DNA of 64,000 nt from Mesostigma viride. Its lineage: Eukaryota > Streptophyta > Mesostigmatophyceae > Mesostigmatales > Mesostigmataceae. Each line of letters starts with the position of its first letter. Position 1 is the first letter of the stretch. The stretch spans positions 735,473 to 799,472 of the forward strand of contig RPFO01000082.1 in assembly GCA_009746045.1 (NCBI GenBank), in the 5' to 3' direction. Of the stretch, positions 3,866 through 61,168 are shown in pieces. The notes under the pieces are model-generated. The model was not told the DNA's origin. It searched no databases and saw only the letters and a program-made list of their open reading frames with translations. The position numbers and the translations under genes were made by a program.

Positions 3866-3876
3866 CGTATTATTGT
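3866..3876 (+). promoter_or_regulatory. B1 primer-binding-site position, complementary to own 3' UTR
   Basis: CGTATTATTGT lies immediately after the 5' LTR. It does not start TGG as a tRNA-primed site normally would. Its exact reverse complement occurs at 10745-10755 in B1's own 3' UTR, inside a hairpin loop. See findings. Confidence 0.75.
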
Positions 3877-3890
3877 CTCCTTACTTCTTC

Positions 3891-5078
3891 ATGTCCAACG
3901 TGCCGAGGGAACAGGCCATTGAGCCTTCGCAAAGCCAGAGCTCGCAGCCGCAGCTTCGGGTAGGAGCCCCGGAGCGATCACGACCTTTTCATCCCTACGC
4001 TCATCCGAGCACCGCATCAACCTTCGTCCAGGCGGCGTACCTGGCAAGGGGGCTGGCGAAGAAAGGTTGGGTAGCAGTTTGCGGAACTGCAGCAGGGCCG
4101 GCGGCGAGCGACCCCATTGTGATGCAGATTGAGGCTTCGACAGCTCCCGGCGAATTGTCGCGAGAGGCCGTCGAAAAGTTTGTGTCAATACGGGACGAGC
4201 TGTCCTCGACCATTTACGGTCTGGAGGTGGCTCACCAGGGCGGGCACGTGACCGTGTCGCAGCTGGATTTGGCGCGGGAGGCACTGGGCCAGATCGTGGC
4301 CATTGGACTGGGAGCAGCGCGACTGTTCAACCATCAGGTGGCAACGTCTGTGCTGGGCGCGGGAGTTGAAGTCCCGGACGTGATCAGGCAAGCGCAGGCG
4401 CGCGAAGTCGACAACCCCTGGTCGTCGGCGGAGGTGGTTTCACAAACGTGCGAACACCTCGTGAACATTCTTTTGCAGGAGTCACGGGGTAACGCAGACC
4501 GGTGGGTGATAACCACACGACCATTTGGGATTTGGTCAACACTCGACACACCGCGGGCGGCGGAACCAGACGCACACGATCCAGTGGTCGAGGTCATCAC
4601 GGGTCGGGAGGTAACGCCAGAAGACTTCCATTACCAATTCGTTGATCAGCCAGAGGGGATCATCGAACGTTCATCTCAGCAGATAGATCAAGGCGACGGT
4701 ACCACAGAAGGGTACGCTGCACGACGTCGTGCTGAGCTGCACGTCCCGCAAGAGCCCGAACACGACTACGGTGGTCGTGGGGCTTGCAACGACAAGCGGG
4801 GTGGTGGAACGCGGTGGGTGAGGAACCTTGAGTGGGATCGCTCGAGTGGGAGCGAGCCCCGGATCCCAGTGGAGAAGTCTGCAGACGGGCGACCCGTTAG
4901 CAGAGTGTTTGGACCCTACGCCGACGGGGAGGACGCCGCTGGCAGCGACGAGGAGCGGCCAGAGACGCCCATCGCAGCCACTGCTCAAGAGCGAGAGCTG
5001 GAGGCAGCGAACCAAGCAGGTGCTGAGTCAGTAGCTGGGACGGTGCCCACGGCATCCCCCAGCGACGCCAGTGCTTGA
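3891..5078 (+). CDS. B1 ORF1, conserved protein of unknown function upstream of Gag
   Basis: 395 codons from the first ATG after the LTR. I do not recognise a known domain. A block near residues 45-130 (FVQAAYLARGLAKKGWVAV and following) and a block near residues 235-275 (EDFHYQFVDQPEG, QGDGTTEGY) recur in the B2 counterpart, so the protein is under element-level conservation. The C-terminal third is acidic and low complexity. The stop at 5076-5078 sits inside the upstream extension of the gag frame, so ribosomes would need reinitiation, a frameshift or splicing to reach Gag. E has a separate ORF in the same place, and in C this N-terminal part is fused to Gag. Confidence 0.7.
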   Translation: MSNVPREQAIEPSQSQSSQPQLRVGAPERSRPFHPYAHPSTASTFVQAAYLARGLAKKGWVAVCGTAAGPAASDPIVMQIEASTAPGELSREAVEKFVSIRDELSSTIYGLEVAHQGGHVTVSQLDLAREALGQIVAIGLGAARLFNHQVATSVLGAGVEVPDVIRQAQAREVDNPWSSAEVVSQTCEHLVNILLQESRGNADRWVITTRPFGIWSTLDTPRAAEPDAHDPVVEVITGREVTPEDFHYQFVDQPEGIIERSSQQIDQGDGTTEGYAARRRAELHVPQEPEHDYGGRGACNDKRGGGTRWVRNLEWDRSSGSEPRIPVEKSADGRPVSRVFGPYADGEDAAGSDEERPETPIAATAQERELEAANQAGAESVAGTVPTASPSDASA

Positions 5079-6488: not shown

Positions 6489-9400
6489 CTACATCATCCC
6501 CTGTAAATAGTCAATCACCCCTTGGGGAAGGTGTGCTGGATGTACATAAGGACGGGGGTGTGCCCCTTGTGCAGCACCAAGGGTGTAAAGATGTTGTTCT
6601 TCCACTGGATTGCAATAACAATGCTGCAGCTGAATTCCCTATGCCTCATGCAGGTGGTGGGTCTCCAGCAGGTGCTGGCCTGGAGGGCCAAGGGACCTTG
6701 CTGGAAGGGCCTGGAGCGGTCCAGGGTGCAGGACCTGACTTGGGGCGTCAGGACGGCCTGCAGGGAAGCCCTGGAACCTCAGGAGTGGATCATGTGTCCC
6801 CACACACGGTTCAGACGTCTCGCCAGGTCAGTACTGAGAGAGTGCTGAGCTATGCTGAGGCTGGCCATAGATTGCATCACATGTTTGGGCATTCTGGGCA
6901 GGCAGCAATGTTTGCTTGGAAGCTAGGTAGGGAGCCTTTGTGGGAGGCTTGCCAGGCTGCTGCTGAGAACTGTGGTTGCCAGGAGAATGCTGTTCACCCA
7001 CCTCAGTCCCATGCTAGGGAGCCTGCTAGGGAGCGTGGCGACATCCAGATGGATATCCAGCATATCAGGGGCTTGTATATATTGGTGGGGGTGGACAGGT
7101 TCAGCAGATACAGGCTGATAGACGTTCTGCCTGGTATGCAGGAGCACCACTTGTTGTTGGGTATGAAGGCCCTGATCCCAGGCTTTGGGGTGTGCAAGAG
7201 TGTGCAGGCAGACTTGCAGTTTGACTGTTTGCTCAAGCATCAGGACCAGCTGCCTTGTAAGCTGGTAGTAGTCCCCAGGGAGAGTCATGGGCAGCAAGGG
7301 GCTGTAGAGAGATCCATACGTGAAGTGAAGACAGTGGTGCTAGCAGCAGAGTCAGTGCCACTTGTGGCATCTGCCTTAGAGAGGGCAGCCTGGTGTAAGG
7401 GGATAGAAGAGCAGCTGAACCACAGGGTTAACTATTACTTTGATGGTGTGGCTGTCTCTCCCCTGGCCCTGCAGTATAGCTTATTGCCTGAGAACGTGGT
7501 GCAGGCCAGTCTTAGGAAGGCAGATAGGTTATTTGCCCAGCTGAGACGTAAGGACAAGAACTGGAATGTGCTGAGGCCTCAGGTGGGGCTGAAGGTCAGG
7601 ATGTGGAAGGAACCATCTATTCCAGGCAAGCGGGGGAAGTGGCAGGATGGGGTTGTCACTCGTGTGGAGGAAGCTAACAGATCTTGCCTGGTGGCTTTGG
7701 AAAAGGATCCAAGGCACGTGTACAGGTTGTCCTGGGCTCATGTCAAGGAAAGAAGGCCACATGCAATCTGGCCTGCAGACGGGCCAGGCCCTCCCAGCTG
7801 GGTTGAGGAGCCAGGCCAGAGCCAGGCAGCAGCAGCTAACAATCCTCTGGTGGTGGATGATGGTCTGTCCCTGCTGGAAGATGACGAGCAGGAGGAGGCT
7901 GCTGAAGCAACTGTCACAAGGCCAGAGGGGACGGGGCAGCCACCTAAGGCCCGGGGGCCTCTCATGGCGGACGTCATCCGAGCACTCATGCGCAGCAAAC
8001 ATGATCCCAAGGTATCCAAGCTCACGGGGTGGGGGTCGTGCTGGGCAGCTACAATGGAGGTAGATACCAACTCACAGGTGTCTGTCATCAGGGAAGAGGA
8101 TGCTGTAGGCTTACAGATGTCCCATCCCAGTTGCCTTGCTGTGTCTGATTTCTCAGGAAAGGTGTCCATGAAGATCCTTGGGGAAGTGAGTGTGCCTATC
8201 TTAGGGGTGCCCACCACGTTCTGTGTGGTAGAGGGCTATCAGGGGCCTGCCATTCTGGGTCAGAACTTCTTGTGCATGCCAGGGGTTACTTTGACCTCTG
8301 ATGAGTTGGCACTAGAAGGCAGGGGCAGCCTCCCCCTTGAAAGATATCACTATTCCCAGGGTCTTGCAGTGGCGGTCAAGGCTGTTAGGAGTCAGCCAGC
8401 TGAGGGTCCTCAAGGTCAGGAGCCCATAGCTGAGGACCTGTTGATAATCCCAACCACCTTTGATCCACGGCAGTTAGGGGTAAACAGGTACCAGATAGCT
8501 GCTCACAGTCCTATTCCCTGGCGCCAGCTAGTCGAGATGATGCAGAGCCCCAAGATGGCTAAGGCATGGACTCTTGGCTTTGTTGCTTCTGGGCATGAGT
8601 GGATAGTTTCCAACTGTGCAGAACCTGTGGATGAGCTGCCAGAAGTTCACCAGCTGCTCAGATTGATGTTTGTCCTCAAGCTCAAGGAGGTAGATGGTGT
8701 CCAGGTGCCACATGTCAGACCAGTTGTAACCGAGTATCATGGCACTGGCCAGTTGTTAGATGAGGAGCTCTATACTCCAGGGATGCTGCATGACACGTGG
8801 AGGATTCTGCTGTGTATATTTCTGTCTTTTCTGGTTAAGGGTGTGCCCTATAGCTCTGTGCTGATTGATTTCAAGAGGGCTTTTCTCAAGGGTGACCAAG
8901 ATCAGGCTAGGCAGACTTGGAGAGATATCCCTCCTTTCTTTGTGACTGTACCTGCTGTATGGAGAGCAGAGATAAAGGCCAGGTACCTGAGAATTCTGAA
9001 AGGGTTGGAAGGTCTCAGGTCCAGTCCCATTATCTGGAGAAAGAGCCTAGAGAAATTCTTGAAGAATACTTGTGGGTTTTCTGTGTCTCCAGTGGATCCC
9101 TGTTTGTTCCAAGGGTCCCACAATGGCCTTCCTGTCTTTGCCTCACTGCATGGTGATGACCTGCATCTCATAGGTCCACCAGACTGGGTTGAGGCTGTCT
9201 TGGCTAAGATCCAGAAGCGGTTTGAGCTGGGTAAGATACAGCACATGGTGGAGAATGAGCCTATGGTCTTCTGTGGCATGCAGGCTACGTTGTTCCAAGC
9301 CAAGGGCTCGTGGTTCATCAGGATGGAGGGTGGTAAGGACTACCCACAGCAGATTGTAGATGCATTGCAGGAGCCCATCACGCAGGCTAGGTGTGCTACC

Positions 9401-10057
9401 ATCAGGGGCATGCTGGCATGGCTTGCAAGTATATGTGCCCCTGACTTGCTGGTTTTGAGTCGACTTACTGATTCCCAGCTGGTTGAGGTGGGTGCTGAGA
9501 GTGTGGTGCAGGCTGTCATGATGTCTCCCCCTCTCATACTGGGTCCTGTGGATTTGTACAAGCCCCTTGACATGGTTCTCTATGTGGACAGTTCTATGGA
9601 TAATAGGAAGGTCACAGAGGTCAGGGGCAGGGCAGCAGCATTAGTTACCCTGGAGCAAGATCACACCTCACTTGTTACCTGGTACAGTCGGTTGCAGAAC
9701 AGGGTTACACCCAGCAGTGATATTGCTGAGTGCAGGGCAATCTGTGAAGGGCTGCATACTGCTCTTTACTTGAGGGAGCTCTTCTACCAGCTATGTCAAG
9801 TGGCTTCCTGTAGGTTGCAGCTGCACACACTGGTGAGGACTGATAGCATGGGCATGGTGCAATTTGTGCACAGGCAGCTGGCCAGGAGCAGGGACCTTGA
9901 CTACTTGTTGCTCAAGGAGATGTCCTACCTAGCTCACATTGAACATGTGCCTGGTGTGGACAACCCTGCAGATGCCCTCACCAAGCTGGAGGAGAAGGCG
10001 GAGAGGCAGTACCCCCTGCTCCGTGGGCTCATGGACCCCTTACACGGGCGGCCATAG
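6485..10057 (+). CDS. pol: B1 Pol: integrase, protease, reverse transcriptase, RNase H
   Basis: A single open frame of about 1190 codons entered by readthrough of the gag UGA. Order of domains: an HHCC-like zinc region (about 6870-7005), the integrase core with Asp in QMDIQHIRG (about 7050), Asp in VQADLQFD and Glu in GQQGAVERSIRE (about 7280-7325). Next is a chromatin- or SH3-like tail, then an aspartic protease EVDTNSQVSVI (about 8055-8090) with its flap or C-lobe near GPAILGQNFL. The RT follows with FKRAFLKGD (about 8870-8895) and HGDDL (about 9150-9165), then RNase H (YVDSSMD, AECRAICEG, TDSMGM, NPADALTK). The protease lies after the integrase, the reverse of classic copia order. Protease Gly is replaced (DTN) and the RT box is HGDD, not YVDD. 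No internal stop is seen. Confidence 0.88.
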   Translation, partial: LATSSPVNSQSPLGEGVLDVHKDGGVPLVQHQGCKDVVLPLDCNNNAAAEFPMPHAGGGSPAGAGLEGQGTLLEGPGAVQGAGPDLGRQDGLQGSPGTSGVDHVSPHTVQTSRQVSTERVLSYAEAGHRLHHMFGHSGQAAMFAWKLGREPLWEACQAAAENCGCQENAVHPPQSHAREPARERGDIQMDIQHIRGLYILVGVDRFSRYRLIDVLPGMQEHHLLLGMKALIPGFGVCKSVQADLQFDCLLKHQDQLPCKLVVVPRESHGQQGAVERSIREVKTVVLAAESVPLVASALERAAWCKGIEEQLNHRVNYYFDGVAVSPLALQYSLLPENVVQASLRKADRLFAQLRRKDKNWNVLRPQVGLKVRMWKEPSIPGKRGKWQDGVVTRVEEANRSCLVALEKDPRHVYRLSWAHVKERRPHAIWPADGPGPPSWVEEPGQSQAAAANNPLVVDDGLSLLEDDEQEEAAEATVTRPEGTGQPPKARGPLMADVIRALMRSKHDPKVSKLTGWGSCWAATMEVDTNSQVSVIREEDAVGLQMSHPSCLAVSDFSGKVSMKILGEVSVPILGVPTTFCVVEGYQGPAILGQNFLCMPGVTLTSDELALEGRGSLPLERYHYSQGLAVAVKAVRSQPAEGPQGQEPIAEDLLIIPTTFDPRQLGVNRYQIAAHSPIPWRQLVEMMQSPKMAKAWTLGFVASGHEWIVSNCAEPVDELPEVHQLLRLMFVLKLKEVDGVQVPHVRPVVTEYHGTGQLLDEELYTPGMLHDTWRILLCIFLSFLVKGVPYSSVLIDFKRAFLKGDQDQARQTWRDIPPFFVTVPAVWRAEIKARYLRILKGLEGLRSSPIIWRKSLEKFLKNTCGFSVSPVDPCLFQGSHNGLPVFASLHGDDLHLIGPPDWVEAVLAKIQKRFELGKIQHMVENEPMVFCGMQATLFQAKGSWFIRMEGGKDYPQQIVDALQEPITQARCATIRGMLAWLASICAPDLLVLSRLTDSQLVEVGAESVVQAVMMSPPLILGPVDLYKPLDMVLYVDSSMDNRKVTEVRGRAAALVTLEQDHTSLVTWYSRLQNRVTPSSDIAECRAICEGLHTALYLRELFYQLCQVASCRLQLHTLVRTDSMGMVQFVHRQLARSRDLDYLLLKEMSYLAHIEHVPGVDNPADALTKLEEKAERQYPLLRGLMDPLHGRP

Positions 10058-11024
10058 AGACCAGGCCTTGCTTCAGCTTGGGTGCCCCAGTGGGCTGCTT
10101 GACCAAAGTACCAAGTGGTGACTGGTGCTTACTGGTTGACAGCCGGTCCTTCAGGGTTAGGTACACCCTCCTGGACAGGAGTTGGTGTGGAATGTCACTC
10201 CTACCAGCTGAGAATCATGCCTGGCCCTCCCCATGGGGTTCAGAAGAGTCGCCAGGACTTAAGTCGACGCCTTTGGCCTCAAACAGTTAGGCCATGCAAG
10301 GGCAACCCGAATGCTGGTTCTTACAGGTTGCTGTATATATGTTTTCTAGTGCTTGTTTCCAACCTGTTGCTAATAAAGAACCTGGTTGTGTGACCATGTG
10401 GAACATGGTTGCCAGGGAGCCACATTCTGGGTTATATATGCTTGAATAAAACATAATCATGTCATGTCATTCTCATGTTGTTCTCATGGTTGTAATGTTT
10501 CTCTTGTGTAAGTTCCAGGTCACCTATAAACCTGGAGGTTGGGGTGGGGTTCAATTCCCCAGCAGAGCCACAGCCTGGCATGAGTGATTCCTGGGCTTAA
10601 CACCCAGTGAAGACATGGGCTCCCCAATGAGGCAGTATTTGTATAGGTGCTACCTGAGTCTCTTTGAGCATAAAAGGGAAAGGCTGGCCAAGGCGGGCGC
10701 CATAAGAACGGGCGCCTGTGATAACTGTGAAAGATCAGGAACTCACAATAATACGTTCTTGGCATCCTTTAATCCCAGCCATTGGACTAGGTAATGTGCC
10801 TTGACTTTAATCTAACACCAAGTTCCCAAGGAAAGGTTGGGAGCTGACCAAGGGGCAGGGGATAACCTGGGGTGACCTCTGATTCACTGGCCAGTACACC
10901 TAGCCTGGTCCAAGGGCGTATATGTTGTTTCCCAAAAGGAGGCAGGACCCTGGGCCCTATCAGGTCTGATCAACCCCAAGGGACCAAGCGGTCTGTGGCT
11001 GAGTGAGCACAAGCAAGGTTAGGC
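10058..11024 (+). other. B1 3' UTR, left part
   Basis: A non-coding stretch that is partly conserved with the B2 3' UTR (28746-29675 on the minus strand). It contains AATAAA-type signals near 10370 and 10445, a GGCGCC...GGCGCC inverted repeat near 10698-10720, and the hairpin whose loop complements the primer site. It is interrupted at 11025 by TIR elements and continues at 22064-22104. Confidence 0.75.
10738..10761 (+). promoter_or_regulatory. B1 3' UTR hairpin carrying the primer-site complement
   Basis: The stem AGGAAC / GTTCTT (one G-U pair) encloses a 12-nt loop TCACAATAATAC. ACAATAATACG (10745-10755) is the exact 11-nt reverse complement of the sequence directly after the 5' LTR. The B2 equivalent keeps both the hairpin and the complementarity with a changed base pair. 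Confidence 0.7.
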
Positions 11025-12113: not shown

Positions 12114-12239
12114 GCTGTCGCGTTTGCGTGCCATTATATCCTAGCCTATCACTTGGAAGGCATATCCATAGCAATAGAGTACTCTTGTGTGTGATCCACT
12201 ATATTCCCCCCCACTTTTTAGCTCGAAAAAATGAAGAGC

Positions 12240-12696
12240 AGTTAGATGAGATGCTTAGGCTGACACACGGATTTCTGGCCTGCGCGCCGCGTATTGCCTA
12301 CCGCGGCTGAGCGGGACACCTCAGTACAGTACGGCAGGGTGTACGGTACTGAGGTGTCATGTGGACCGATGTGCGGTTAGTGCCAGACTGTGCCTAGACT
12401 CTAGCTCGACCCGCCAGACCCGGGTTATCCGGTTCTGGACGGGCCGAGTGTAGTTGATGCTAGTGACGTGGTCGCATGGCATTGCAGTGTACAGTTGTCC
12501 ACTGGTCGTGTGCTGCAGGTAGCACCGCCATAGGCATATAGGCGTAGCACTGGGGAGTGCCACAGCACCCGAGTTTGCCCAGACGTTCCATTCTGAGCTC
12601 TCAGCTTCCTTTGCTCTCTCATTGTATTATTGTAATACAATCATCATTCGCTCTCAGCTTTCGCAGTTGTTTGTCGTCCCTAGTCTCCATCCAACT
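12240..12696 (+). repeat. E 5' LTR
   Basis: 457 bp, starting AGTTAGATGAG and ending CATCCAACT. The 3' LTR (456 bp) differs at few positions, for example near the ends of the central CCGGTT/CCGGGC segment. The terminal bases are not TG...CA. Confidence 0.92.
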
Positions 12697-12707
12697 TGGA
12701 CTGAAAA
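12697..12707 (+). promoter_or_regulatory. E primer-binding-site position, complementary to own 3' UTR
   Basis: TGGACTGAAAA directly follows the 5' LTR. Its exact reverse complement is at 20146-20156 in E's 3' UTR, in a 12-nt hairpin loop. Because it begins TGG, a tRNA primer cannot be excluded for this element alone. Confidence 0.7.
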
Positions 12708-20141: not shown

Positions 20142-20160
20142 ATCTTTTTCAGTCCAGATG
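20142..20160 (+). promoter_or_regulatory. E 3' UTR hairpin carrying the primer-site complement
   Basis: CATC (20141-20144) pairs with GATG (20157-20160) around a 12-nt loop TTTTTCAGTCCA. TTTTCAGTCCA (20146-20156) is the exact 11-nt reverse complement of 12697-12707. The stem is short (4 bp). Confidence 0.6.
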
Positions 20161-20275: not shown

Positions 20276-20731
20276 AGTTAGATGAGATGCTTAGGCTGAC
20301 ACACGGATTTCCGGCCTGCGCGCCGCGTATTGCCTACCGCGGCTGAGCGGGACACCTCAGTACAGTACGGCAGGGTGTACGGTACTGAGGTGTCATGTGG
20401 ACCGATGTGCGGTTAGTGCCAGACTGTTCCTAGACTCTAGCTCGACCCGCCAGGTCCGGTGTATCCGGGCCTGACGGGCCGAGTGTAGTTGATGCTAGTG
20501 ACGTGGTCGCATGGCATTGCAGTGTACAGTTGTCCACTGGTCGTGTGCTGCAGGTAGCACCGCCATAGGCATATAGGCGTAGCACTGGGGAGTGCCACAG
20601 CACCCGAGTTTGCCCAGACGTTCCATTCTGAGCTCTCAGCTTCCTTTGCTCTCTCATTGTATTATTGTAATACAATCATCATTCGCTCTCAGCTTTCGCA
20701 GTTGTTTGTCGTCCCTAGTCTCCATCCAAGT
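20276..20731 (+). repeat. E 3' LTR
   Basis: 456 bp, starting AGTTAGATGAG and ending CATCCAAGT, followed by the AGAGC duplication. It is collinear with 12240-12696. Confidence 0.92.
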
Positions 20732-22104: not shown

Positions 22105-23016
22105 AGTTAGCATTTTGGGCAACCAATATGCTAAGTGGATGCAGTTTGGAAAGACCTTTCCAACGCCGTGCTGACCGCCTGAAACAGACAAGGGGCAAGA
22201 AAGATATCAAGTCCCGAAGTCCTAGCCATCCGTGGCCGACTAGGGTGCAGTCCTCTGGCATAGTGGACAGGACACGTGGCAGGCCGGGCCTGCACAGGCT
22301 TAGCCTGATTATCACGTGACTGTGGTCCACGTAGATCAGAGGAGCAGCAGCCTGTGACTGGTGGAATACTGGAGCTGGCACAGGTCTGCAAGGATACTAG
22401 GCCTTGCAGGCTTGTGACAGGTCCTGTACTTCCTAGGTTGCAGAGTCTAGGCAAATCCAGTTCGTCCTGGCTCTGCACTGATGCCAGTGGACGTTGAGGA
22501 TTTGCTTGCACGCCTGCACGTGCCTCGTCACGCCGATGGGAACGAGGAACAACGCAAAGGATATAGCTTGGTCATGGGGGATGACCAGCTATCTCGGAAA
22601 GCACGAACCGTGGGTGCCACCTTGGTCGTGGAAGTGCCCATTGTGGTCGTGGCCTGGCAGAGTGCAATCATACGCCGTATAATACGGTATAATACGGTAT
22701 AATACGTAATACGCTGGCTTTGAGCGTATGATTTTTCATACGTAATACGTTTTAGCGCATAATGACGTATTATACCGTATTATACCGTATAATGCCGTGT
22801 TTTCCGCGTTTTTTTTACGTTTTGCGCGGCTAGGATGCCAGAACGACAGGGCAACGATTTGAAGCAACAGATTTCGTATCTCTACTAAGTACTGACCCGT
22901 CTGAACTTTCACAATTCGACGATGAACAGATTTAAGGTTGCTGCCTTGCAACATTGGCTAAGACGCGCTGTGAAAGATCAAGAGCTCACATACGTTGGGA
23001 GCTCTTTCTAATAACT
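22105..23016 (+). repeat. B1 3' LTR, with a 265-bp insertion
   Basis: Collinear with the 5' LTR (3222-3865) except for an insert at 22658-22922 and three extra bases (ATA) just before the final ACT. It is preceded by the polypurine tract AAAAGAAGAAAGGG and TTGG, and followed by the AATTT duplication. 912 - 265 - 3 equals the 644 bp of the 5' LTR. Confidence 0.9.
22658..22922. repeat. AT-rich palindromic insertion in B1 3' LTR
   Basis: The 5' LTR reads GGCCTGG-TGAACAG without this sequence. The insert contains CGGTATAATA units (about 22676-22710) mirrored by TATTATACCG units (about 22765-22795), giving a large imperfect hairpin. I see no clear target duplication and no terminal inverted repeat. 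It could be a small MITE-like or foldback element. Confidence 0.7.
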
Positions 23017-28091: not shown

Positions 28092-28745
28092 ATTTGCACA
28101 GCAACTCGTCAGCAGAGCTTGTGAGCTCCTGGTCCTTGCCGGCTGGAATGACCCAAGGCTGCTGGCTAGCAACCTTTATCCTCACACCAGGCCTACGACC
28201 CTCGATAGGCTCGCCACTCGTCGTGACGACCAAGGTTCGTGTGTGAAGACCCTCGTTGCCTCGTTGGGCCTCGAGCTATATGCAACCTCGTTCCATCCTT
28301 GTTCCTCGGTCATGAGCAACGCTGGGCAACGCTACATTGCCAGAGCCTCGTATCGCTGCCTTGCATCCTCGTTGCAGGCAGCATACAGGAATCTCTGGCT
28401 ATCCTGTGTCTAGGACAGCACAGGACCTGCCACAGTCCTGCAAGGACTTACATCCTTGCAGACCTGCTGGCTGGTTACTGGCTTCTACTAGCCACAGTAC
28501 CGTTGAGCCCTCAGTACACTGTGTCCCAGTCACGTGAGAGTCCAGGCTAAGCCTGTGCAGGCACGGCCTGCCACGTGTCCTGTCCACTATGCCCTGAGTG
28601 TGCACCGCCCTCGCCCACCGGTCGGCAGTACTTCGGGACTTGATAACTTTCTAGTCCCTTGTCTGTTCTAGGCGGTTGACACGGCGTTGGAAAGGTCTCC
28701 TCAACCTGCATCCATCTAGCACATTGGTGCCCCAATATGCTAACT
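28092..28745 (-). repeat. B2 3' LTR
   Basis: 654 bp. On the minus strand it starts AGTTAGCATATTGGGG and ends GTTGCTGTGCAAAT. It is preceded by the polypurine-type run AACAAGAAAGGG and TTGG. It is nearly identical to 35823-36476. Confidence 0.9.
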
Positions 28746-29675
28746 CCAACCCTTTCTTGTTTTGGAGCTTGGACCAGCCTGAGAACCTATCAGCCACTGT
28801 CCCCACAAGCCTTGAACATCTGATCCCTCCCAGAGACCAGACCTGCCTTTTCTTTTGGAACCTGAGGTGCCTCCAAATATTAGCTAGGCCTGCTCATTGG
28901 TTCAAAGGTTGCCCTCTGACCCACATGACATCCCAACCCTTTCTTTGGGAACCTGGTGTAGATTAAAGTTAGGTCTTCACTTAGTCAGAGGAGTTTGGAT
29001 AGAGGAGTCCATGAACGTACTATTGTGAGTTCCTGGTCATCCAGTTATCACAGGCGCCCGTTCATATGGCGCCCGCCACGGAGCCTCCTTTATCTTTTAA
29101 ATCCTTCCAAAGACTGAGAGAGCCCTGACAAATGTTAGCCAACACATGGGGAGCCCATGTCCTCACTGAGTACTCAGGATTCATACATGCCAGGCTGAGG
29201 TCAGCTGGGGAATCGAACCCCACCCCATATCCTCCAGGTTTGGATCAGCTCCTGGAACTGAGCATCACAAACAACAAGACATGACAATAACAAGATTATG
29301 TTTTATTATAAAGAGTATAACCCATAGTGAGGCCCCTGGCAACCACGTCCAACATGGTCACACAACCAGGGATTTTATTAGCATGCAACAGGTTGGTTAC
29401 AGAGAATATATACAAATGTACAGCAACCTGTTAGAGCCAACACTTGGGCTGCCCTTGCAGGGTCCATTCCATGAAGACCCAAGGCCCATTACAAAGTCCT
29501 TAAGACTCTTCTGCAGCTCCATGACAGAGCCAGGCGAAATTCTCAGCCAGGGGAGTGACTCCACCCTGACCCCTGTCCAGCAGAGTGTGTCTGAACTCTG
29601 AAGGACCTGCTGTCAGCCACCACGTGGCTGCCCAGCCCACTGGGATGCCTCCCACCTAGAGCAAGGCTGTTTGGT
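28746..29675 (-). other. B2 3' UTR
   Basis: Non-coding. It shares conserved patches with the B1 3' UTR, including the GGGCGCC inverted repeat (about 29050-29080) and the primer-complement hairpin. An AATAAAA-type signal lies near 29297-29303 on the minus strand. Confidence 0.75.
29010..29033 (-). promoter_or_regulatory. B2 3' UTR hairpin carrying the primer-site complement
   Basis: On the minus strand the stem CCAGGAAC / GTTCATGG (one mismatch) holds a 12-nt loop TCACAATAGTAC. CAATAGTACG (plus coordinates 29016-29025) is the exact reverse complement of the 10 nt after the B2 5' LTR. Compared with B1, the A-T pair has become G-C on both sides. Confidence 0.7.
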
Positions 29676-35812: not shown

Positions 35813-35822
35813 CAATAGTACG
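35813..35822 (-). promoter_or_regulatory. B2 primer-binding-site position, complementary to own 3' UTR
   Basis: On the minus strand CGTACTATTG directly follows the 5' LTR. The exact reverse complement lies in the 3' UTR loop at 29016-29025. Confidence 0.75.
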
Positions 35823-36476
35823 ATTTGCGCAGCAACTCGTCAGCAGAGCTTGTGAGCTCCTGGTCCTTGCCGGCTGGAATGACCCAAGGCTGCTGGCTAG
35901 CAACCTTTATCCTCACACCAGGCCTACGACCCTCGATAGGCTCGCCACTCGTCGTGACGACCAAGGTTCGTGTGTGAAGACGCTCGTTGCCTCGTTGAGC
36001 CTCGAGCTATATGCAACCTCGTTCCATCCTTGTTCCTCGGTCATGAGCAACGCTGGGCAACGCTACATTGCCAGAGCCTCGTATCGCTGCCTTGCATCCT
36101 CGTTGCAGGCAGCATACAGGAATCTCTGGCTATCCTGTGTCTAGGACAGCACAGGACCTGCCACAGTCCTGCAAGGACTTACATCCTTGCAGACCTGCTG
36201 GCTGGTTACTGGCTTCTACTAGCCACAGTACCGTTGAGCCCTCAGTACACTGTGTCCCAGTCACGTGAGAGTCCAGGCTAAGCCTGTGCAGGCACGGCCT
36301 GCCACGTGTCCTGTCCACTATGCCCTGAGTGTGCACCGCCCTCGCCCACCGTTCGGCAGTACTTCGGGACTTGATAACTTTCTAGTCCCTTGTCTGTTCT
36401 AGGCGGTTGACACGGCGTTGGAAAGGTCTCCTCAACCTGCATCCATCTAGCACATTGGTGCCCCAATATGCTAACT
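35823..36476 (-). repeat. B2 5' LTR
   Basis: 654 bp, near-identical to 28092-28745. On the minus strand it starts AGTTAGCATATTGG and ends GCTGCGCAAAT. The AGTTA start is kept but the TAACT end seen in B1 is not. Confidence 0.9.
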
Positions 36477-41383: not shown

Positions 41384-41395
41384 TGGTATCGGAGG
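41384..41395 (+). promoter_or_regulatory. A2 tRNA primer-binding site
   Basis: TGGTATCGGAGG immediately follows the LTR, identical to A1. It resembles the initiator-Met-tRNA sites of plant copia elements. Confidence 0.8.
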
Positions 41396-49829: not shown

Positions 49830-49830
49830 T

Positions 49831-54335: not shown

Positions 54336-54748
54336 AGTTAGCCTCTAGTCGTGGACATAGGCTAAGTACCAGATAGCAATGTGCTATCTGGGGTTTCGCA
54401 CGTGTAGGCTCGGTCAGAAGTCCCGGCTATATGTGATTCGGCAGGCTAGACTATTCGATAGCCGAGTCTTGGCGGTACGGCGTCGCCAGTACCCACTCGG
54501 GACTGACATTGAGGTGTCGGATGTTGGACTAAGGTCCTGAGAGTCTAGCAGTGGCGTCGCGCCACTCAGGCTGCACCACAGAGCCCAACGGCCACTGTCG
54601 GCTGCTCCAGACGTGGCAGCCAGGCAGAGCGTTGCTTGTCGACAATGCTAAATGCCCTTGTGCACGTTGGGTGCGGGGCTTGTGATTTATTGTAATAAAC
54701 ACATGCGTTAGGCCATTGAGCATTGAGAGGTCCACTCGTTTATTAACT
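54336..54748 (+). repeat. C 5' LTR
   Basis: 413 bp, AGTTAGCCTC to TTTATTAACT. Perfect hairpins include CCAGATAGC-AATGT-GCTATCTGG (54369-54391) and TTAGCCT paired with AGGCTAA at the start. A TGTAATAAAC signal lies near 54692-54701. Confidence 0.95.
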
Positions 54749-54758
54749 TGAATTAAAG
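54749..54758 (+). promoter_or_regulatory. C primer-binding-site position, complementary to own 3' UTR
   Basis: TGAATTAAAG directly follows the 5' LTR. Its exact reverse complement CTTTAATTCA is at 61010-61019, in a hairpin loop in C's 3' UTR. Confidence 0.75.
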
Positions 54759-54779: not shown

Positions 54780-57212
54780 ATGGGAGATCCTATTATGCCA
54801 GGCCTGAAATTCAAAAAGAAGCGGATAGATGATGCTGGCTGGCAGACGGTGCCAACAGTAGAGGAGAAGGCTGCGGCCAAGAAAATTAAAAAAGCAAGAA
54901 GGGCGCAGGCGGAGCAGGAACAGCTAGTGGCTAGGCAGCTAGCGACAGCGATGGCTCAGCAAAGCGTCAAGGCAGCCGCCCAAGAGCGGCAGCTGGCAGC
55001 CCTGCAAAAACAGGTAACCTCCTTGGCCGAACAGGCCGAAAAATCTGTTTTTTCTAGCCCAGCTAGCTCGCAAAAATCCGTAAGCAGTATGCGGTCCCCC
55101 AGCCCTCAGGCAAGCCCCGCTGACCTCCCCGCTAAGGCACCGTCCCAACCTCCTCAGGAGGAGGGCGGAATAGCCAAAAGCGGTGGAGAACAAGCGGGGG
55201 TGCCGATCGTCCCCTCATCCGCTCAGAAAGCGGGGGGGTACGAGAGGAAGCTGAAGAGGGACGCATACATGTTCAAAATGCGGACCAAGAAGGTCCCAGG
55301 ACCCGTCATCGGCAGCATTCAGCTGTCTGATGACGAGGTCACCCTCTCCCCAGGGGTTTCTGATGGGGAGATTGAGATGAATCCACTCAATCAGGCGGTC
55401 GAACAGGCCGCCGCCCAGTTTGTAGAGGCACGCCGTCTTGCACAGCAAGAGCGGGACCGCAAAAAGACAGCGGCCCGCAACATGACTGCTGAAAAGCAGC
55501 TGGCTGCCATGCAAGCTGGAGAGGTGCTCCATGAGCGCCTCTTCAATGAGCTGGTTGTTGCACAGGGGGACGAGGGGGTCACGCTAACAGCGGACCAACT
55601 CAATTCCCTCCTGTTGCAGCTGACCAAGCTGCAGGAGAAGATGCAGGCAACAGAAACGCCTGCACTCCCTGCACATACCCTCCCCACCCCTGGCACTGAT
55701 TTGAGCCAAAGGGTGGTTGGAGGGGCCGTGTCACCAAGGGTGCTGCAGGGCAAGAGCCAGGGCACTGTCCCCAGCTCCCCCAGCAAACCCCCAAGTGACC
55801 CGGATGCCCAGGAGCTCCACCGCCGCAAGGTGGTGGAGAATAAACTCCTAGAGGCCATGATAGCCCGTGAGGGCGGCCTGGCAGCCCAAGCAGCAGCGCT
55901 GCAGCAGCTTGGCCAGGCCAAGGGTTTTCCTACCAGCAGTGGAGTAAGGCAAGGGGAACAAGACCCTGCGCCTGCAGCTGGAACACCACCAGCCACTGCA
56001 CTAGCACAGCAAGCTGGAACACAACCACCTTCTGCGGAGGCCCAGCAGACTGCACCCACACCAGGGCAGTCAGATAAGAGCAAGGCGGTGGCAAAAGGGA
56101 CCCCAGTGGACCCAACCCCACCCACCCTTAAGGGGGACGTCCAAGAGCTGCTTGCCATACTCACGGCACAGCTCAAGACCATGGCCACCAACCCCATGGA
56201 CGACCTGTCGCGCACCCAGCTGGATGGCCTCCTGGCCAGTATCTCCCAGCTGGAAAGGGGCAGGGCGAACATGGAGGAGGCTGATCTTCAACAAGCAGTC
56301 AAGACTTTCTTGGCTGAAAAGAAGGACCCGGTCAAAGGTACGTTTAACCCAAAACAAAAAGAATCTAAAATAGAAATCCCTGGCTTACCTGAGGGTTACA
56401 CCCAGGAACAGGCCAAGGAATTTTTGTTTAGCCTGAACTACTGTTTTGAGTCTCTGAATGTCCAGAACTGGTTCAGTGCCTTGCGTGCATCCACCACCAT
56501 CCATAGGTCAGCCCCAGCCATTAAAACCTTGGTCCAGATTTACCAAGAAAAGGCTGGGACACCTAACCTAGCAATTGCATTGTGGCCAGCCTTCATGGAT
56601 GAGCTTAAGCACTTGCTGGTGGATAGGACACAGTTTGAATCCATCCGTGGTTTCAACTGGCTTAATGCTTACCAGGTCAACAAGCAAGACTATGCCACTG
56701 ATTGCAAGAATTATAGGTTGGCTGTAGAAAAGGACCCTGATCTCAGGGGTCTGCCTGCTAGCTACCTGCTGTATTCATGGTTGTCAAATGCTAACCTGGA
56801 CAAAGCTGTGTACGCCACTGTGGTTGCAGGTCTCAAACCTCTGTGGAACGATTTCCGGGCGGGGATGAACCATATCCAAGACTGCCTGACTCCCCTGGCT
56901 ATAGGTGCTCCGTCTGCAACCCCAACCCCCAAGGTCCAACAGACCCAAGGGAAGGGGCAAGGAAAAAAGCGCCAGCTAGGGGGGCAGCAGGGCGGCCAGT
57001 CCAAGAAGGCCAAGGGCAACCAGCCCCAAGGCCAGCCGGGACAGCCTGCTCAGCTCAAGCCAAACCAGTGGAGGCGGCCCACCCCCCCCACACCTGCCCC
57101 ACCCACCCCTGCACCCACTGCTCAGCCCCCCATGCAGGTCCCAAGAACAAGTGCACCCGGTGTGGCACCAAGGGACACCAGCGGGCGGACTGCAAGTGGA
57201 ACCCCGCAGTAG
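54780..57212 (+). CDS. gag: C Gag with long N-terminal extension
   Basis: 810 codons, intact. The first about 520 residues form an extension with a Lys/Ala/Gln-rich helical start (KKIKKARRAQAEQEQL), likely coiled coils and Pro/Ala/Gln-rich linkers. It occupies the place of the separate ORF1 of B and E. The capsid-like core begins near residue 530 with GLPEGYTQEQAKEFL and runs through LLYSWLSNANLDKAVYATV, matching E Gag. The C-terminal stretch is basic and Gln/Gly-rich, then Pro-rich. The zinc knuckles are not in this frame but in the overlapping pol frame, so only the frameshift product carries them. Confidence 0.85.
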   Translation: MGDPIMPGLKFKKKRIDDAGWQTVPTVEEKAAAKKIKKARRAQAEQEQLVARQLATAMAQQSVKAAAQERQLAALQKQVTSLAEQAEKSVFSSPASSQKSVSSMRSPSPQASPADLPAKAPSQPPQEEGGIAKSGGEQAGVPIVPSSAQKAGGYERKLKRDAYMFKMRTKKVPGPVIGSIQLSDDEVTLSPGVSDGEIEMNPLNQAVEQAAAQFVEARRLAQQERDRKKTAARNMTAEKQLAAMQAGEVLHERLFNELVVAQGDEGVTLTADQLNSLLLQLTKLQEKMQATETPALPAHTLPTPGTDLSQRVVGGAVSPRVLQGKSQGTVPSSPSKPPSDPDAQELHRRKVVENKLLEAMIAREGGLAAQAAALQQLGQAKGFPTSSGVRQGEQDPAPAAGTPPATALAQQAGTQPPSAEAQQTAPTPGQSDKSKAVAKGTPVDPTPPTLKGDVQELLAILTAQLKTMATNPMDDLSRTQLDGLLASISQLERGRANMEEADLQQAVKTFLAEKKDPVKGTFNPKQKESKIEIPGLPEGYTQEQAKEFLFSLNYCFESLNVQNWFSALRASTTIHRSAPAIKTLVQIYQEKAGTPNLAIALWPAFMDELKHLLVDRTQFESIRGFNWLNAYQVNKQDYATDCKNYRLAVEKDPDLRGLPASYLLYSWLSNANLDKAVYATVVAGLKPLWNDFRAGMNHIQDCLTPLAIGAPSATPTPKVQQTQGKGQGKKRQLGGQQGGQSKKAKGNQPQGQPGQPAQLKPNQWRRPTPPTPAPPTPAPTAQPPMQVPRTSAPGVAPRDTSGRTASGTPQ

Positions 57213-60200
57213 GCGACGTGGACCTCTGCTTCGGTTGCAAGCACCCCCGCCATCTGCCCCCCGGCACGTGGTGCGACCGGCAGGACAAGGCTCCAAAAGG
57301 ATGTACGTCCTCACAGCACGCCTATGTGGATTTATATGATCTCATTATCATTGGGGATAAAGACAAGGGACTGCTAGATTTTGAGGCAGCTCAGAAAATC
57401 TCCTCCACGTATAATGTGATACTGCCCTACCTCAAAGCTCTTACCCCAGCTGCTGTTGACACAGTAGACTTAAGGGAACTAGCAACCCAGCTCCACATAG
57501 CCATGGGTCATGAGGTGGTGGCAGAAAAGATTGCCAGAAGAGCAGGAGGTTCACGACTCAGGAATGCTGTCAGGTTGGCTAGAAAACACTGCCAGCAATG
57601 TCAGTTCCATGGCCCAAAACCTCCCAAATGGCATGTCGCAACACCACCCACCCAAAGGGGAATAATTGTGGGTGATGTCGTGCATATCGATGGTGAACAA
57701 TATCTGATCCTAAAAGACACATGGTCCAGATTCACTGTCATGGAACCCCTACCTGGCATGGCTAAAGAGCAACTGCGTGCAGCACTTGTGATAGCATTGC
57801 CCAGATTCTACCCAGTTGACACTATACTGCTTGATCAACAGTTTAGCTGTCTGGCTGAGTGTGAAGGATGGGATGCTAATATTGAGATTGCTGGATTGCA
57901 AGATCATGAAGGGCAGGGTGTCATTGAAAGAACCATCAGGTCAGTCAAAACTTTAGTGGCGAAATCCACTGACCTGAAAGCCACATCTGGAAGCTATGCT
58001 GACAGAGCACTGTGGTGCAGTGAAATCTGTGCTACACTTAACCTTAGACCTGTGTTGCATGCACCATGGGGGGAAATCCTTCCCATTGGCTTACAGGCAG
58101 GTGTGTACCCTCCAGAGGTATTAGCTCTGTATAACACAGTAAGAGCTAAAGTGGCTGATAAGCTAGCTGAAAAGGACATAACACACCCCAGAACAGTATT
58201 CCAACTGGGTGAACAAGTCCTATATTTCAAAGAAACCAAACATGGCAAGACAGGCATGTGGTATGGTCCGTGCACTGTTCTAAGAATGACCAAAAAAGGA
58301 AAAAATATGGATATTCGAAGTTTGGAAACAGGGAGAAAACACAGGGTGAGCAGTCATAGAGTTAAGAAGTATTTCCCTCCTTTGGCAGACGTGCCAGGGG
58401 AAGAGTCCTTGAACATGGATTCCCTCCTTAACTCTGGTGAGCAAGCAGAACCACCCAGCATTCCAACACCAGGAGCTGATGATGGCACTACCACACCCTC
58501 TGTCATTCCTCCACCCCTCAGTGAGGTACGTGTCACCCCACAACCTGGTGTAAGTCCCTCTGGGCAGAGTTCAACCAGGCATGAGGTACCAGAGCAAAAC
58601 AAAGGCAATCCAGCTGAGTTCAAATCCAAGCTAGAAAAAGCCCTGGCAGCTCTGCATAAGGCTCACAAGAGCAAGGCTAAACAAGCCTCAGGTTTGGCCA
58701 AGGTCTCTGCTGTGTGCTCCGATTATAGCCAGGAATCCTGCATCCTAGCTGTGGACACTCAGGCACAGGTCAGTGTGATCAGTGCACAAGCCATTCCTGG
58801 TCTGCAACTTGCACCCTCACCATGGACACAGGTGCAAGATTTTTCAGGCAAAACAACCTTAGATGTGTTGGGTCAAGTAATGATCCCCATACTTGGCATC
58901 CAGACACCTTTCCAGGTAGTGGAAGGGTACATGGGCAATGCTTTGTTGGGAGAACCCTTTATCTCTTACCCAGGTGTCACCATCACTGCTAGCCAGCTGC
59001 GTGTGACTGGGGTAGGAGCCATTCCCTTGGATCACTACAAGATTCCATTGTCCCAACTGGTTCATGGATTAGATGCCTATATCAAGGCCATTAACATCAA
59101 ATATGGGCCAGGTGAAATCCCTGACCTAGAGAAAAAGGTGCACAATCAAAGGCCACACCCGCAGTCCTTTGGGGTTGGAAAGTGGGACTTAGCCATGCAC
59201 TCTCCTCACAACTATGATGCTCTAATCCAACAATGCAAAACACAAAAAGGGTTTCAAAAATGGATCCAAGCCATTAGGCACCAAGCCCGCGAAGAGTGGG
59301 TGCTGCCAAACCCTAAGCATCCTGACTATAAGCCACCTGTCACTCCTGTCTGGGAAATTCCAGAAGGTGCCAAAAAGTTGAGACTCAAGTTTGTGCTAAA
59401 ACACAAGGCACAGCCAGTAGGCTCACCTATATATCATGCTAGGCCATGTGTGACAGAATTAAAAGGCATGTCAAAACTGTCCAAGGGTGAACTCTACACT
59501 CCTGGGCTGCAGCAAACATCCCTCAGGATACTGCTCTCTGTCTTCCTCCACCATCTCAATGCTGGCCAAGATTATGCCTGCAAAGCTACTGATATCAAAA
59601 GGGCTTTCCTTAGAGGGGACCCTGATAAAGCGCAAGATGTGTGGAAGGGTCAGGTCTATGTGGTTCCCACCCCTGCTGCATGGGCACATGATATTGATGA
59701 GCCATATCTACTCCTAAATCTAGGGGTGGAAGGTTTGCAAAGTGCTCCCACTATCTTCAGAAAATCAGCAGAAGAGGTGTTCAAGAAACTTAATGCCACT
59801 TATGATGATCTGGACCCTTGTCTCTTTGCTGTGCCCACACCCTCTGGCTTGCTCCTGTTTGTGTGGCATGGTGATGACCAACTGATTTGTGGACCAAGAG
59901 CTGAAGTTGACAAGTTCATTCAGCAGGTTCAGCAGTCATATGAGATTGGAAAGCAGACAGAGCTGGGGCCAGAACCCCTACAGTTCTGTGGCATAATGCT
60001 AGCACTGGAAGAGCAACAGGAACAGTGGGTGTGTACTCTATCCCCGCCTGCCCAGTACTTAGAAGAATGCCTAGAGCTGCTTGATATTCCGTGCATTCCT
60101 GCTCACATGTGTGCTACTGTCAAAGGAAAATTAGGGTGGCTGAGTGCTATCTGTGCACCTCATCTGGCAGTGGTCAGCAGGATTGATGACACAGTATTAC

Positions 60201-60802
60201 AAACCATGAAACCTAAGGATCTCCAGAAGCTACTAACGGCTGGACCTTCCCTTGTCATTCATCCACTCAACCTCATGGAAGATATTCACATTAACTGTCT
60301 GATGGACAGCTCCATGGAGAGTAGGGTAATAACAAAAATGGATGCCAGGGAGGCTGGGGTGTTCTTCCTTACCAACAAGGGAGACTATATGTCCATGGTG
60401 TCGTGGTACAGCAGATTGCATCGCAGAAAAGCTGTTGGCAGTAACTCTGCTGAGTGCCGTGCTGTGGTGTCTGCTGTGCAGCATGCTCGATCCCTTCAGC
60501 ACATACTAACCTGGTTGCAAACTCAGGCTGGCAGCAAGGCTGATGTGCATGCTCACTTACACACTGACAGTCAGTCAGTCATTAGTTTCCTTAACAAGAA
60601 ATCTGTGACTGCTGCTGTGCATACTGATCTGGACTGGGTGATTTTGAAACAGGAAACAAGCTATTTTTCCAGCTGGCAGCATCTGCCAGACGAGGAGAAC
60701 CTGGCTGACGCATTGACCAAGATTCCGTCATTAGCAGCAACCCAGTACCAGCTTCTGTGTGATGCAATGAATCCCTATCTGTCTAGTCAGACAAATGGAT
60801 GA
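56843..60802 (+). CDS. pol: C Pol: zinc knuckles, integrase, protease, RT, RNase H
   Basis: The open frame overlaps gag and is reached by -1 shift, so the true protein starts near 56969. Order: two Cys/His knuckles (CTRCGTKGHQRADC, CFGCKHPRHLPPGTWC, about 57150-57275), then an HHCC zinc region (about 57490-57605). The integrase shows Asp in GDVVHIDG (about 57675), Asp in LLLDQQF (about 57830) and Glu in QGVIERTIR (about 57925), then a tail with WYGPCTVL. The protease AVDTQAQVSVIS (about 58750) comes next. RT has TDIKRAFLRGD (about 59590) and WHGDDQLI (about 59868). RNase H has MDSSMES, AECRAVVSAV, TDSQSV and LADALTKI. The frame is intact to the stop. It has the same IN-before-PR order and HGDD box as B and E. 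Confidence 0.9.
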   Translation: MERFPGGDEPYPRLPDSPGYRCSVCNPNPQGPTDPREGARKKAPARGAAGRPVQEGQGQPAPRPAGTACSAQAKPVEAAHPPHTCPTHPCTHCSAPHAGPKNKCTRCGTKGHQRADCKWNPAVGDVDLCFGCKHPRHLPPGTWCDRQDKAPKGCTSSQHAYVDLYDLIIIGDKDKGLLDFEAAQKISSTYNVILPYLKALTPAAVDTVDLRELATQLHIAMGHEVVAEKIARRAGGSRLRNAVRLARKHCQQCQFHGPKPPKWHVATPPTQRGIIVGDVVHIDGEQYLILKDTWSRFTVMEPLPGMAKEQLRAALVIALPRFYPVDTILLDQQFSCLAECEGWDANIEIAGLQDHEGQGVIERTIRSVKTLVAKSTDLKATSGSYADRALWCSEICATLNLRPVLHAPWGEILPIGLQAGVYPPEVLALYNTVRAKVADKLAEKDITHPRTVFQLGEQVLYFKETKHGKTGMWYGPCTVLRMTKKGKNMDIRSLETGRKHRVSSHRVKKYFPPLADVPGEESLNMDSLLNSGEQAEPPSIPTPGADDGTTTPSVIPPPLSEVRVTPQPGVSPSGQSSTRHEVPEQNKGNPAEFKSKLEKALAALHKAHKSKAKQASGLAKVSAVCSDYSQESCILAVDTQAQVSVISAQAIPGLQLAPSPWTQVQDFSGKTTLDVLGQVMIPILGIQTPFQVVEGYMGNALLGEPFISYPGVTITASQLRVTGVGAIPLDHYKIPLSQLVHGLDAYIKAINIKYGPGEIPDLEKKVHNQRPHPQSFGVGKWDLAMHSPHNYDALIQQCKTQKGFQKWIQAIRHQAREEWVLPNPKHPDYKPPVTPVWEIPEGAKKLRLKFVLKHKAQPVGSPIYHARPCVTELKGMSKLSKGELYTPGLQQTSLRILLSVFLHHLNAGQDYACKATDIKRAFLRGDPDKAQDVWKGQVYVVPTPAAWAHDIDEPYLLLNLGVEGLQSAPTIFRKSAEEVFKKLNATYDDLDPCLFAVPTPSGLLLFVWHGDDQLICGPRAEVDKFIQQVQQSYEIGKQTELGPEPLQFCGIMLALEEQQEQWVCTLSPPAQYLEECLELLDIPCIPAHMCATVKGKLGWLSAICAPHLAVVSRIDDTVLQTMKPKDLQKLLTAGPSLVIHPLNLMEDIHINCLMDSSMESRVITKMDAREAGVFFLTNKGDYMSMVSWYSRLHRRKAVGSNSAECRAVVSAVQHARSLQHILTWLQTQAGSKADVHAHLHTDSQSVISFLNKKSVTAAVHTDLDWVILKQETSYFSSWQHLPDEENLADALTKIPSLAATQYQLLCDAMNPYLSSQTNG
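56963..56969 (+). promoter_or_regulatory. Candidate -1 frameshift slippery site A-AAA-AAG
   Basis: In the gag frame the codons are GGA AAA AAG, giving the heptamer A AAA AAG in the phase required for -1 slippage. The shifted frame is exactly the pol frame. A GC-rich stretch follows. A C-CCC-CCC run in the gag frame near 57083 is a second possible site. Confidence 0.6.
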
Positions 60803-61168
60803 TGAAATAGGGCACTCCAGACTAATGGTGCAGACTATGGTCTTTCCCAGCTGGTGGCAACTTGGCAACAAACATAATAATTTCTTGATGTGCCCCCTGG
60901 TTTTTTTCCATAGCCACTCATCACTCCACTGACTTGTACAAACAGGGGATCCTAGGTTCAGAAACCTCAAAGACACTGTCAGATTTAAAGGCAATGGGGT
61001 CTGTGGGCGCTTTAATTCACAACGTCCATTGTGGTCTGATATGAGTTTTCCTGTACCAATGTCTTATTCATGATATTGCCAAGTACCTGAAAAAAAACAA
61101 AAAGGAATAAAAACTGGAGGTGCAGCACTGATGCCTTAAAAAAAAAAAAAAAAAAAGAATAAAACTGG
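60803..61168 (+). other. C 3' UTR
   Basis: Contains the primer-complement hairpin and two copies of an A-rich GAATAAAA-CTGGAG motif (about 61104-61119 and 61157-61170), the second joined directly to the LTR after a run of about 20 A. The first copy looks like a duplicated polypurine tract. Confidence 0.75.
61005..61027 (+). promoter_or_regulatory. C 3' UTR hairpin carrying the primer-site complement
   Basis: GGGCG pairs with CGTCC (one G-U) around a 13-nt loop CTTTAATTCACAA. CTTTAATTCA (61010-61019) is the exact reverse complement of the 10 nt after the 5' LTR. Confidence 0.65.

Follow-up and report, generated by a model that had tools for sequence, protein, structure and literature searches.

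In five LTR retrotransposons of Mesostigma viride that lie wholly or partly in the window (the whole 64,000-nt stretch of DNA analyzed here), the 10–11 nt directly after the 5' LTR were an exact reverse complement of a segment in the 3' UTR of the same element. The complement began at LTR +1 in all five elements of the AGTTA...AACT type (A, B1, B2, E, and C), and this arrangement suggests that minus-strand DNA synthesis is probably primed by a piece of the element's own genomic RNA, derived from the 3' UTR. The first-pass annotation had described four such matches, in B1, B2, E, and C, and each of them was recovered as an exact reverse complement (Table 1). However, the four amount to only three independent cases, since B1 and B2 are related (79% alike over 1.3 kb, with edge sites that differ at one base), and it is element A that provides the fourth lineage.

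The AGTTA...AACT elements are a divergent Ty1/copia-like lineage of LTR retrotransposons. The TG...CA ends were absent from their LTRs, which instead began with AGTTAG or AGTTAA and ended with AACT (AAAT in B2). In a profile scan, an RVT_2-type reverse transcriptase was found in element C with a score of 36.0 bits, above the cut-off of 31.6, while the RVT_2 scores of B1 (21.8 bits) and B2 (19.3 bits) were both below it, and one scanned frame of element E gave no RVT_2 match. Matches to rve were also below the cut-off in B1, B2, and E (E-values 0.02–0.18), and in B1 the match was located upstream of the reverse transcriptase. Element C included a protease-like stretch directly upstream of its reverse transcriptase, identified by a weak match to gag-asp_proteas (E-value 0.09), an order that would be unusual. 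The element C reverse transcriptase had a single protein relative at an E-value of 1e-20 or better, Mesvir1 (48% across 33% of the query), and a search of viral_contigs found no relatives.

The LTR edges of B1, B2, E, and C were determined from the LTR pairs together with 5-bp target duplications, the latter recognized by eye. Because the edges were fixed in this way, the match can be said to start immediately past the LTR.

Table 1. Coordinates in the window of LTRs, primer sites, and 3' UTR complements
Feature	Positions	Strand	Sequence	Remark
Element A 3' UTR site	1292..1301	+	TTGTAATTTG, after GGGACTCA	reverse complement of the first 10 nt past the 5' LTR of A
Element A 3' LTR	1474..2172	+	AGTTAACG...GCTTAACT	same LTR end at C557:728096-728218
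Element B1 5' LTR	3222..3865	+	AGTTAG...CTAACT	target duplication AATTT, 3217-3221
B1 primer site	3866..3876	+	CGTATTATTGT	adjoins 5' LTR
B1 3' UTR complement	10745..10755	+	ACAATAATACG in GGAACTCACAATAATACGTTC	exact match
B1 3' LTR	22105..23016	+		split by insertion at ~22658-22922; AATTT target duplication downstream
Element E 5' LTR	12240..12696	+	AGTTAG...CCAACT	target duplication AGAGC
E primer site	12697..12707	+	TGGACTGAAAA	adjoins 5' LTR
E 3' UTR complement	20146..20156	+	TTTTCAGTCCA	exact match
Element E 3' LTR	20276..20731	+	end ...CCAAGT	LTR pair
Element B2 3' LTR	28092..28745	-		LTR pair
B2 3' UTR complement	29016..29025	-	CAATAGTACG in GGAACTCACAATAGTACGTTC	exact match
B2 primer site	35813..35822	-	CGTACTATTG	adjoins 5' LTR
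Element B2 5' LTR	35823..36476	-		target duplication TATAC
Control element D, tRNA-type primer site	41384..41394	+	TGGTATCGGAG	LTR TGTTAG...AACA; site begins TGG
Element C 5' LTR	54336..54748	+	AGTTAG...TTAACT	target duplication GTGAC
C primer site	54749..54758	+	TGAATTAAAG	adjoins 5' LTR
C 3' UTR complement	61010..61019	+	CTTTAATTCA	exact match
Element C 3' LTR	61169..61581	+		LTR pair

Within the 64 kb of the window, each 10-mer of B1, B2, E, and C and its complement occurred as a single copy. The distance from the 3' UTR site to the 3' LTR was 172 nt in A, ~312 nt in B1 (without the nested insertion), 270 nt in B2, 119 nt in E, and 149 nt in C. Additionally, the motif GGRACTCA was common to A and B, directly 5' of the 10-nt segment. 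The sites were also frequent throughout the genome: at two or fewer mismatches, the LTR end of E joined to its primer site had 418 matches, the extended 3' UTR site of E had 336, and that of A had 659, with 0 matches for the control in every case. The 10-nt site of B1 was identical in 13 of 20 fetched B1 5' stretches, and the other seven did not include the junction. Duplex predictions between the whole 5' end and the UTR consisted of long, scattered pairings only and were set aside.

Element A passed a test outside the window, where its 5' end had been invisible to the first-pass annotation. This end was located 7.3 kb to the left of the window by a search for the LTR end, and the first 10 nt after the 5' LTR (C557:728219 onward) were the exact complement of the 3' UTR site inside the window.

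Copies of the B lineage provided a comparison within one family, as its subfamilies differ at one base of the site. A total of 53 primer-site rows were used, for 18 of which no loop partner was within reach. In all 35 paired copies, which were identified by patterns that took only sites otherwise intact, the two sides agreed at the variable base (21 with C/G and 14 with T/A), as did 28 of 28 when pairs were limited to distances of 6–10 kb and 18 of 18 fetched copies, a set that overlaps the 35 pairs. For example, B1 and B1b were 98% alike over a 183-nt stretch of the 3' UTR, yet they differed on both sides of the pairing. Independent change of the two sites, which had been named beforehand as evidence against a pairing, was found in none of the B copies with both ends and with sites otherwise intact. 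This covariation is a single A-U/G-C switch inherited by many copies, rather than many events. Two exceptional copies were also observed. In L052, which carries an altered loop (CAATAGCACG), the expected partner site had 0 matches genome-wide and a search for the 5' end of the copy did not find it, and a second covariation in this copy was dropped, as the partner site is absent from the genome. In L015, a G loop occurred inside a B1-type 3' UTR, and a search for its primer site did not find it.

Short complements might also be expected by chance if long UTRs were scanned until one appeared. An exact 10-mer did arise in 0 to 27 of 4,000 dinucleotide shuffles of the 3' UTRs, depending on the element (three for A, none for B1 or B2, 27 for E, and two for C). 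However, the site is fixed at the LTR edge, and therefore no search over offsets was involved. The product of the shuffle rates for A, B, C, and E was below 1e-11 with B set at three per 4,000, where none was seen. Moreover, element A obeyed the rule from outside the window, and the base change was concordant in all paired B copies. Chance is thus already contradicted by element A and by the joint change in the B lineage, and the earlier assertion that the matches were not accidental gained support from the shuffle rates and from both of these observations. In control element D, which has a tRNA-type primer site, no long complement of that site was found in the 3' region at 43133–44278, where the longest reached 7 nt.

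The structural context of the 3' UTR sites was more varied than a 12–13 nt hairpin loop in each element, as had been proposed. In minimum-energy folds of 60 nt, such a loop held for B1, where a 12-nt loop contained the site except for its last base, and it held in part for B2 and C, where about half of the site was unpaired. It did not hold for E, in which eight of the 10 bases were unpaired in a loop other than the one claimed. The site of element A was entirely inside a 12-nt loop. Ranked by accessibility among positions, the sites were in the top 5% (A), 15% (B1), 22% (B2), 8% (E), and 25% (C), with a Fisher combined p of 0.022 for the five elements.

In the proposed mechanism, the 10 nt that adjoin the 5' LTR would pair with a 10-nt stretch in the 3' UTR that is accessible, partly in a hairpin-loop context, and 119 to ~312 nt before the 3' LTR. 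The two partners may belong to one RNA molecule (pairing in cis) or to the two RNAs of a dimer. Cleavage at the 3' end of the 3' UTR stretch, either by the element's RNase H, as happens in Tf1, or by a nuclease of the host, would then create a 3' end that would be extended into U5 to give minus-strand strong-stop DNA. If plus-strand synthesis then carried the primer over into the primer site of the new element, both sites would stay matched and co-evolve by themselves. The first-pass annotation had suggested either self-priming or circularization; the complementarity on which both would depend was borne out by element A and by all 35 paired B copies. A self-primer of the Tf1 type was ruled out, as the longest complement of the edge site inside the LTR was 5 nt or less in all five elements tested (for A, in its 3' LTR).

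The main rival of self-priming from the 3' UTR is 5'-3' cyclization, in which the pairing would circularize the genomic RNA and aid the start of reverse transcription while another RNA serves as the primer. The pairing does link the 5' and 3' ends in A, B1, B2, E, and C, and efficient initiation in Ty1 and Ty3 needs an end-to-end interaction (PMC4974528); the CYC5:CYC3 pairing of Ty1 genomic RNA is one of the close parallels. However, CYC5 of Ty1 is located downstream of the tRNA primer site, whereas the pairing here covers the primer-site position itself, from LTR +1 in 5/5 elements. A second primer would therefore have to displace the pairing, and every lineage would need one with the same 10 nt. 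Since the match abuts the LTR exactly and has a uniform length of ~10 nt, a primer is favored over a mere contact between ends, and cyclization appears unlikely.

A host RNA, such as a tRNA, a half tRNA, or another small RNA, might also be the primer, with the 3' UTR mimic serving in packaging or delivery. Precedent exists in Osser and other copia elements of the plant lineage, whose primer sites complement a half tRNA-Met (PMC6317226); a tRNA T-arm-like stretch was present in the 3' UTRs of A, B1, and B2; and the site of E, like that of control element D, starts with TGG, which would be compatible with a tRNA. In contrast, the first 10 nt contained no TGG in A, B1, B2, or C, so the 3' CCA end of a tRNA cannot pair there. 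The 3' UTR also carries the sense of the primer and not that of the binding site, and would therefore be a competitor rather than a binder of such a primer, and a separate host RNA would be required for each of the four lineages. Across the whole window, ARAGORN predicted 0 tRNAs and Rfam gave no match at gathering level. A tRNA-like structure over the site was rejected on this account, and Rfam gave only unrelated weak matches in the B1 3' UTR. Among the matches listed for the fetched loci, tRNA-Gly predictions from ARAGORN spanned ~870–950 bases and ended on the T-arm-like stretch, and they were taken as spurious. Priming by a host RNA is considered improbable.

Self-priming from the 3' UTR would resemble several known systems in part. 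Tf1 and Tj1 of the Tf1/Sushi group self-prime without a tRNA, and the same has been predicted for Tcn1 and the TAR copia lineage (PMC7175516, PMC4600332, and PMC6317226). As in that group, a complement of the element's own RNA, ~11 nt there and 10–11 nt here, directly follows the LTR; the Tf1 primer, however, is the RNA 5' end (the first 11 nt, in the 5' LTR), whereas the segment here is in the 3' UTR. The split 5'-3' primer binding site of Ty3 similarly involves the 3' UTR in primer placement (PMC4974528), but its 3' UTR segments bind tRNA-iMet, while the 3' UTR segment here is in the primer sense. Osser-type elements share a copia primer site unmatched to a tRNA 3' end, although their primer comes from within tRNA-Met (PMC6317226). 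PMC7175516 refers to a study of Cryptococcus Tcn2-5 for "novel mechanisms of priming", and that study may already describe priming from the 3' UTR.

The balance tips slightly toward a distinct class of priming, in which the primer would be excised from the element's own 3' UTR. A 10-nt "primer cassette" would be free to drift between lineages, since every round of copying would rewrite the primer site from it, and the lineage would no longer depend on tRNA sequence. In the plant survey of PMC6317226, self-primers were sought in the 5' LTR only, and a primer source in the 3' UTR would have escaped it for this reason. The edge test, in which the 10 nt adjoining the LTR are compared with the element's own 3' UTR, is now applicable to every orphan family of LTR elements that lacks a tRNA-type primer site. 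If confirmed, the mechanism would show that the primer need not be the RNA 5' end, would explain the free variation of primer binding sites between families, and would provide a built-in route to the co-evolution of two distant sites.

The window (G000:C557:735473-799472, in a 440-Mb genome) is filled with nested LTR retrotransposons. Elements A, B1, B2, C, and E share the LTR form AGTTA(G/A)...AACT (B2 ends ...AAAT), and their edges were taken from LTR pairs and 5-bp target duplications read by eye, or for A without a duplication. Pol carries an RVT_2 reverse transcriptase whose match exceeds the Pfam cut-off in C; the B1 and B2 matches fall short of that cut-off, and the one frame of E that was scanned gave no match. 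The pol of A is similar in parts to that of B, as is that of C to E, and the primer sites show no sequence relationship among A, B, C, and E. A protease-like stretch, seen through weak profile matches and by-eye motifs, apparently lies between integrase and reverse transcriptase, an unusual order for copia elements.

Features of the elements, with positions in the window unless a contig or locus is named; target duplications were read by eye
Feature	Element	Location	Details
Target duplications	B1, B2, E, C		AATTT, TATAC, AGAGC, GTGAC, respectively
Control element	D		LTR TGTTAG...AACA; target duplication GTTAC; ordinary primer site TGGTATCGGAG
5' LTR	A	C557:728096-728218	outside the window
Complement of primer site	A	1292-1301	exact, first 10 bases after 5' LTR
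3' UTR sites	A	G000:C224:860090-871387	four, one strand, spacing 3,758-3,759 bases
U5 end	B lineage	3820-3865; L078, L080	repeats GAYCARGARCTCACA of 3' UTR hairpin
Hairpin repeat	B1b		U5: GACCAGGAACTCACA then GTTCTGG; 3' UTR: GATCAGGAACTCACA, ATAGTAC, GTTCTTGG
T-arm / B-box-like stretch	A, B1, B2	915-930; 10545-10561; 29206-29222 (minus strand)	GGGGTTC(G/A)ATTCCC, in 3' UTRs
Protease-like stretch		6533-10057; 56843-60802
1,001-bp repeat		11113-12113; 21059-22059	99.9%; LTR-like, brackets E
93-bp recurrence		11023-12206	93 bp preceding first 1,001-bp copy recur exactly after that copy
Palindrome		49830-51632	B1-type LTR and 3' UTR; arms 853 nt, spacer 97 nt
11-bp-period repeat	D LTRs	40998-41110; 44715-44816; 25383-25506

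The first-pass annotation had reported that the bases following the 5' LTR in B1, B2, E, and C are complementary to a site (here the loop) in the same element's 3' UTR. All four pairs were exact and unique within the 64-kb window, although B1 and B2 are related and count as one lineage. The only complement of such length in the window was in each element's own 3' UTR. Measured from the LTR edge, the match was 10 nt in A, B2, and C, 11 nt in B1 and E, and 10 nt in subfamily B1b and the copy C2:3139382, as expected for a unit fixed at 10 nt that is sometimes extended by chance. In control D, only 6 nt matched from the tested position (two bases before TGG), and at most 7 nt over the first 40 offsets. 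Per 4000 dinucleotide shuffles of the element's own 3' UTR, an exact 10-mer occurred 0 (B1), 0 (B2), 27 (E), 2 (C), and 3 (A) times. As a second null, edge matches of at least 10 nt at 9139 window positions numbered 18 (A), 45 (B1), 151 (B2), 31 (E), and 3 (C), counts that are inflated by real inverted copies.

Only the 3' part of A reaches into the window, and its 5' LTR was located through a search with its LTR end. The 91-base read at this junction runs ...GCTTAACT then CAAATTACAACC, and of the first 40 offsets, offset 0 gave the best complement. The primer site is identical in a second A copy, L094. The 3' UTR site is preceded by GGGACTCA in A and by GGAACTCA in B. With up to two mismatches, the genome contained 659 matches to the A loop, 336 to the E loop, and 418 to the E LTR end plus site, each with 0 in the control and with 100 of 100 listed matches exact. 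The regularly spaced A sites on contig C224 may form a tandem array or belong to a short A derivative.

In the B lineage, primer site and loop differ together at one base. The loop pattern GGAACTCACAN{5,12}GTTC had 707 genome matches vs 11 for its reversed control; among the 100 listed, 82 were loops, where the variable pair was AT, GT, or (once) GC, and the other 18 came from the LTR ends of a subfamily. The LTR-end-plus-site pattern CTAACTCGTAYTATTG (at most one mismatch) had 432 matches vs 4, all 100 listed being exact. Both patterns accept only sites intact elsewhere, so that decayed copies fall outside these counts. Pairing considered the 53 of the 100 listed primer sites whose contigs the loop list covers, and required a same-strand loop 4-15 kb downstream. 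A partner was in range for 35 and missing for 18, and the variable base was concordant in all 35 (21 C with G, 14 T with A; Fisher 4e-10, a statistic that ignores the relatedness of copies), including 28 of 28 at distances of 6-10 kb. Retrieved loci (23 primer sites, 57 loops) included 18 copies with both, all concordant, a set partly overlapping the 35. The junction was present in 13 of 20 retrieved B1 5' stretches, with an identical site each time, and absent from the other seven. The primer site matching the lone loop variant at locus L052 was absent genome-wide, and none was found to pair with the G loop in a B1-type UTR at L015. The joint change is a single switch between subfamilies, and a recent one, as the 3' UTR stretches of B1 and B1b remain 98% alike across 183 nt.

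The hairpin loop claimed for the 3' UTR site held in part. In local folds, a 12-nt loop encloses the site in A and all but one base of it in B1. Roughly half of the site is unpaired in each of B2 and C, and E leaves 8 of its 10 bases unpaired, but in a different loop from the one claimed. Predicted accessibility was in the top quarter or nearly so in all five elements, with a combined p of 0.022 that could come from AU-richness alone, leaving "loop" a fair but unproven label. The 5' half of the 3' UTR hairpin recurs at the LTR's U5 end in the B lineage, as if both were read by one shared factor; the LTRs of A, C, and E did not show this motif. The U5 copy of B1b resembles the 3' UTR hairpin minus the primer core. 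The 3' UTRs of A, B1, and B2 also include a stretch resembling a tRNA T-arm or B box, and the long-intron tRNA-Gly calls that ARAGORN built on it were rejected as spurious.

In published reports, the Tf1 primer is the first 11 nt of its own RNA (PMC7175516), and self-priming is predicted in plants for Tcn1 and TAR elements through a search confined to the 5' LTR (PMC6317226). Other reports describe Skipper and SM-Tcn1 as having neither such a complement nor a known primer (PMC5006619, PMC2864245), the fungal GalEa as having no primer site (PMC5445492), and Ty1 and Ty3 as making contacts between RNA ends (PMC4974528). No description of a 3' UTR primer was found in these reports or among the open-access titles and abstract openings listed.

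The LTR edge in LTR elements is defined by the 3' end of the primer, and the 10-nt site is placed where a primer site belongs, since it adjoins that edge. The simplest account, as read from the sequences, would be a primer made from the 3' UTR segment, which would be cut at its own 3' end. Cyclisation through the same 10-nt bases is a possible alternative, and the two could also act in sequence, with pairing first and cleavage next. Plus-strand synthesis in LTR elements copies the primer into the new primer site. A primer derived from the 3' UTR would likewise be copied into the primer site of the new element; this would account for the two sites matching within each element despite their total difference between lineages.
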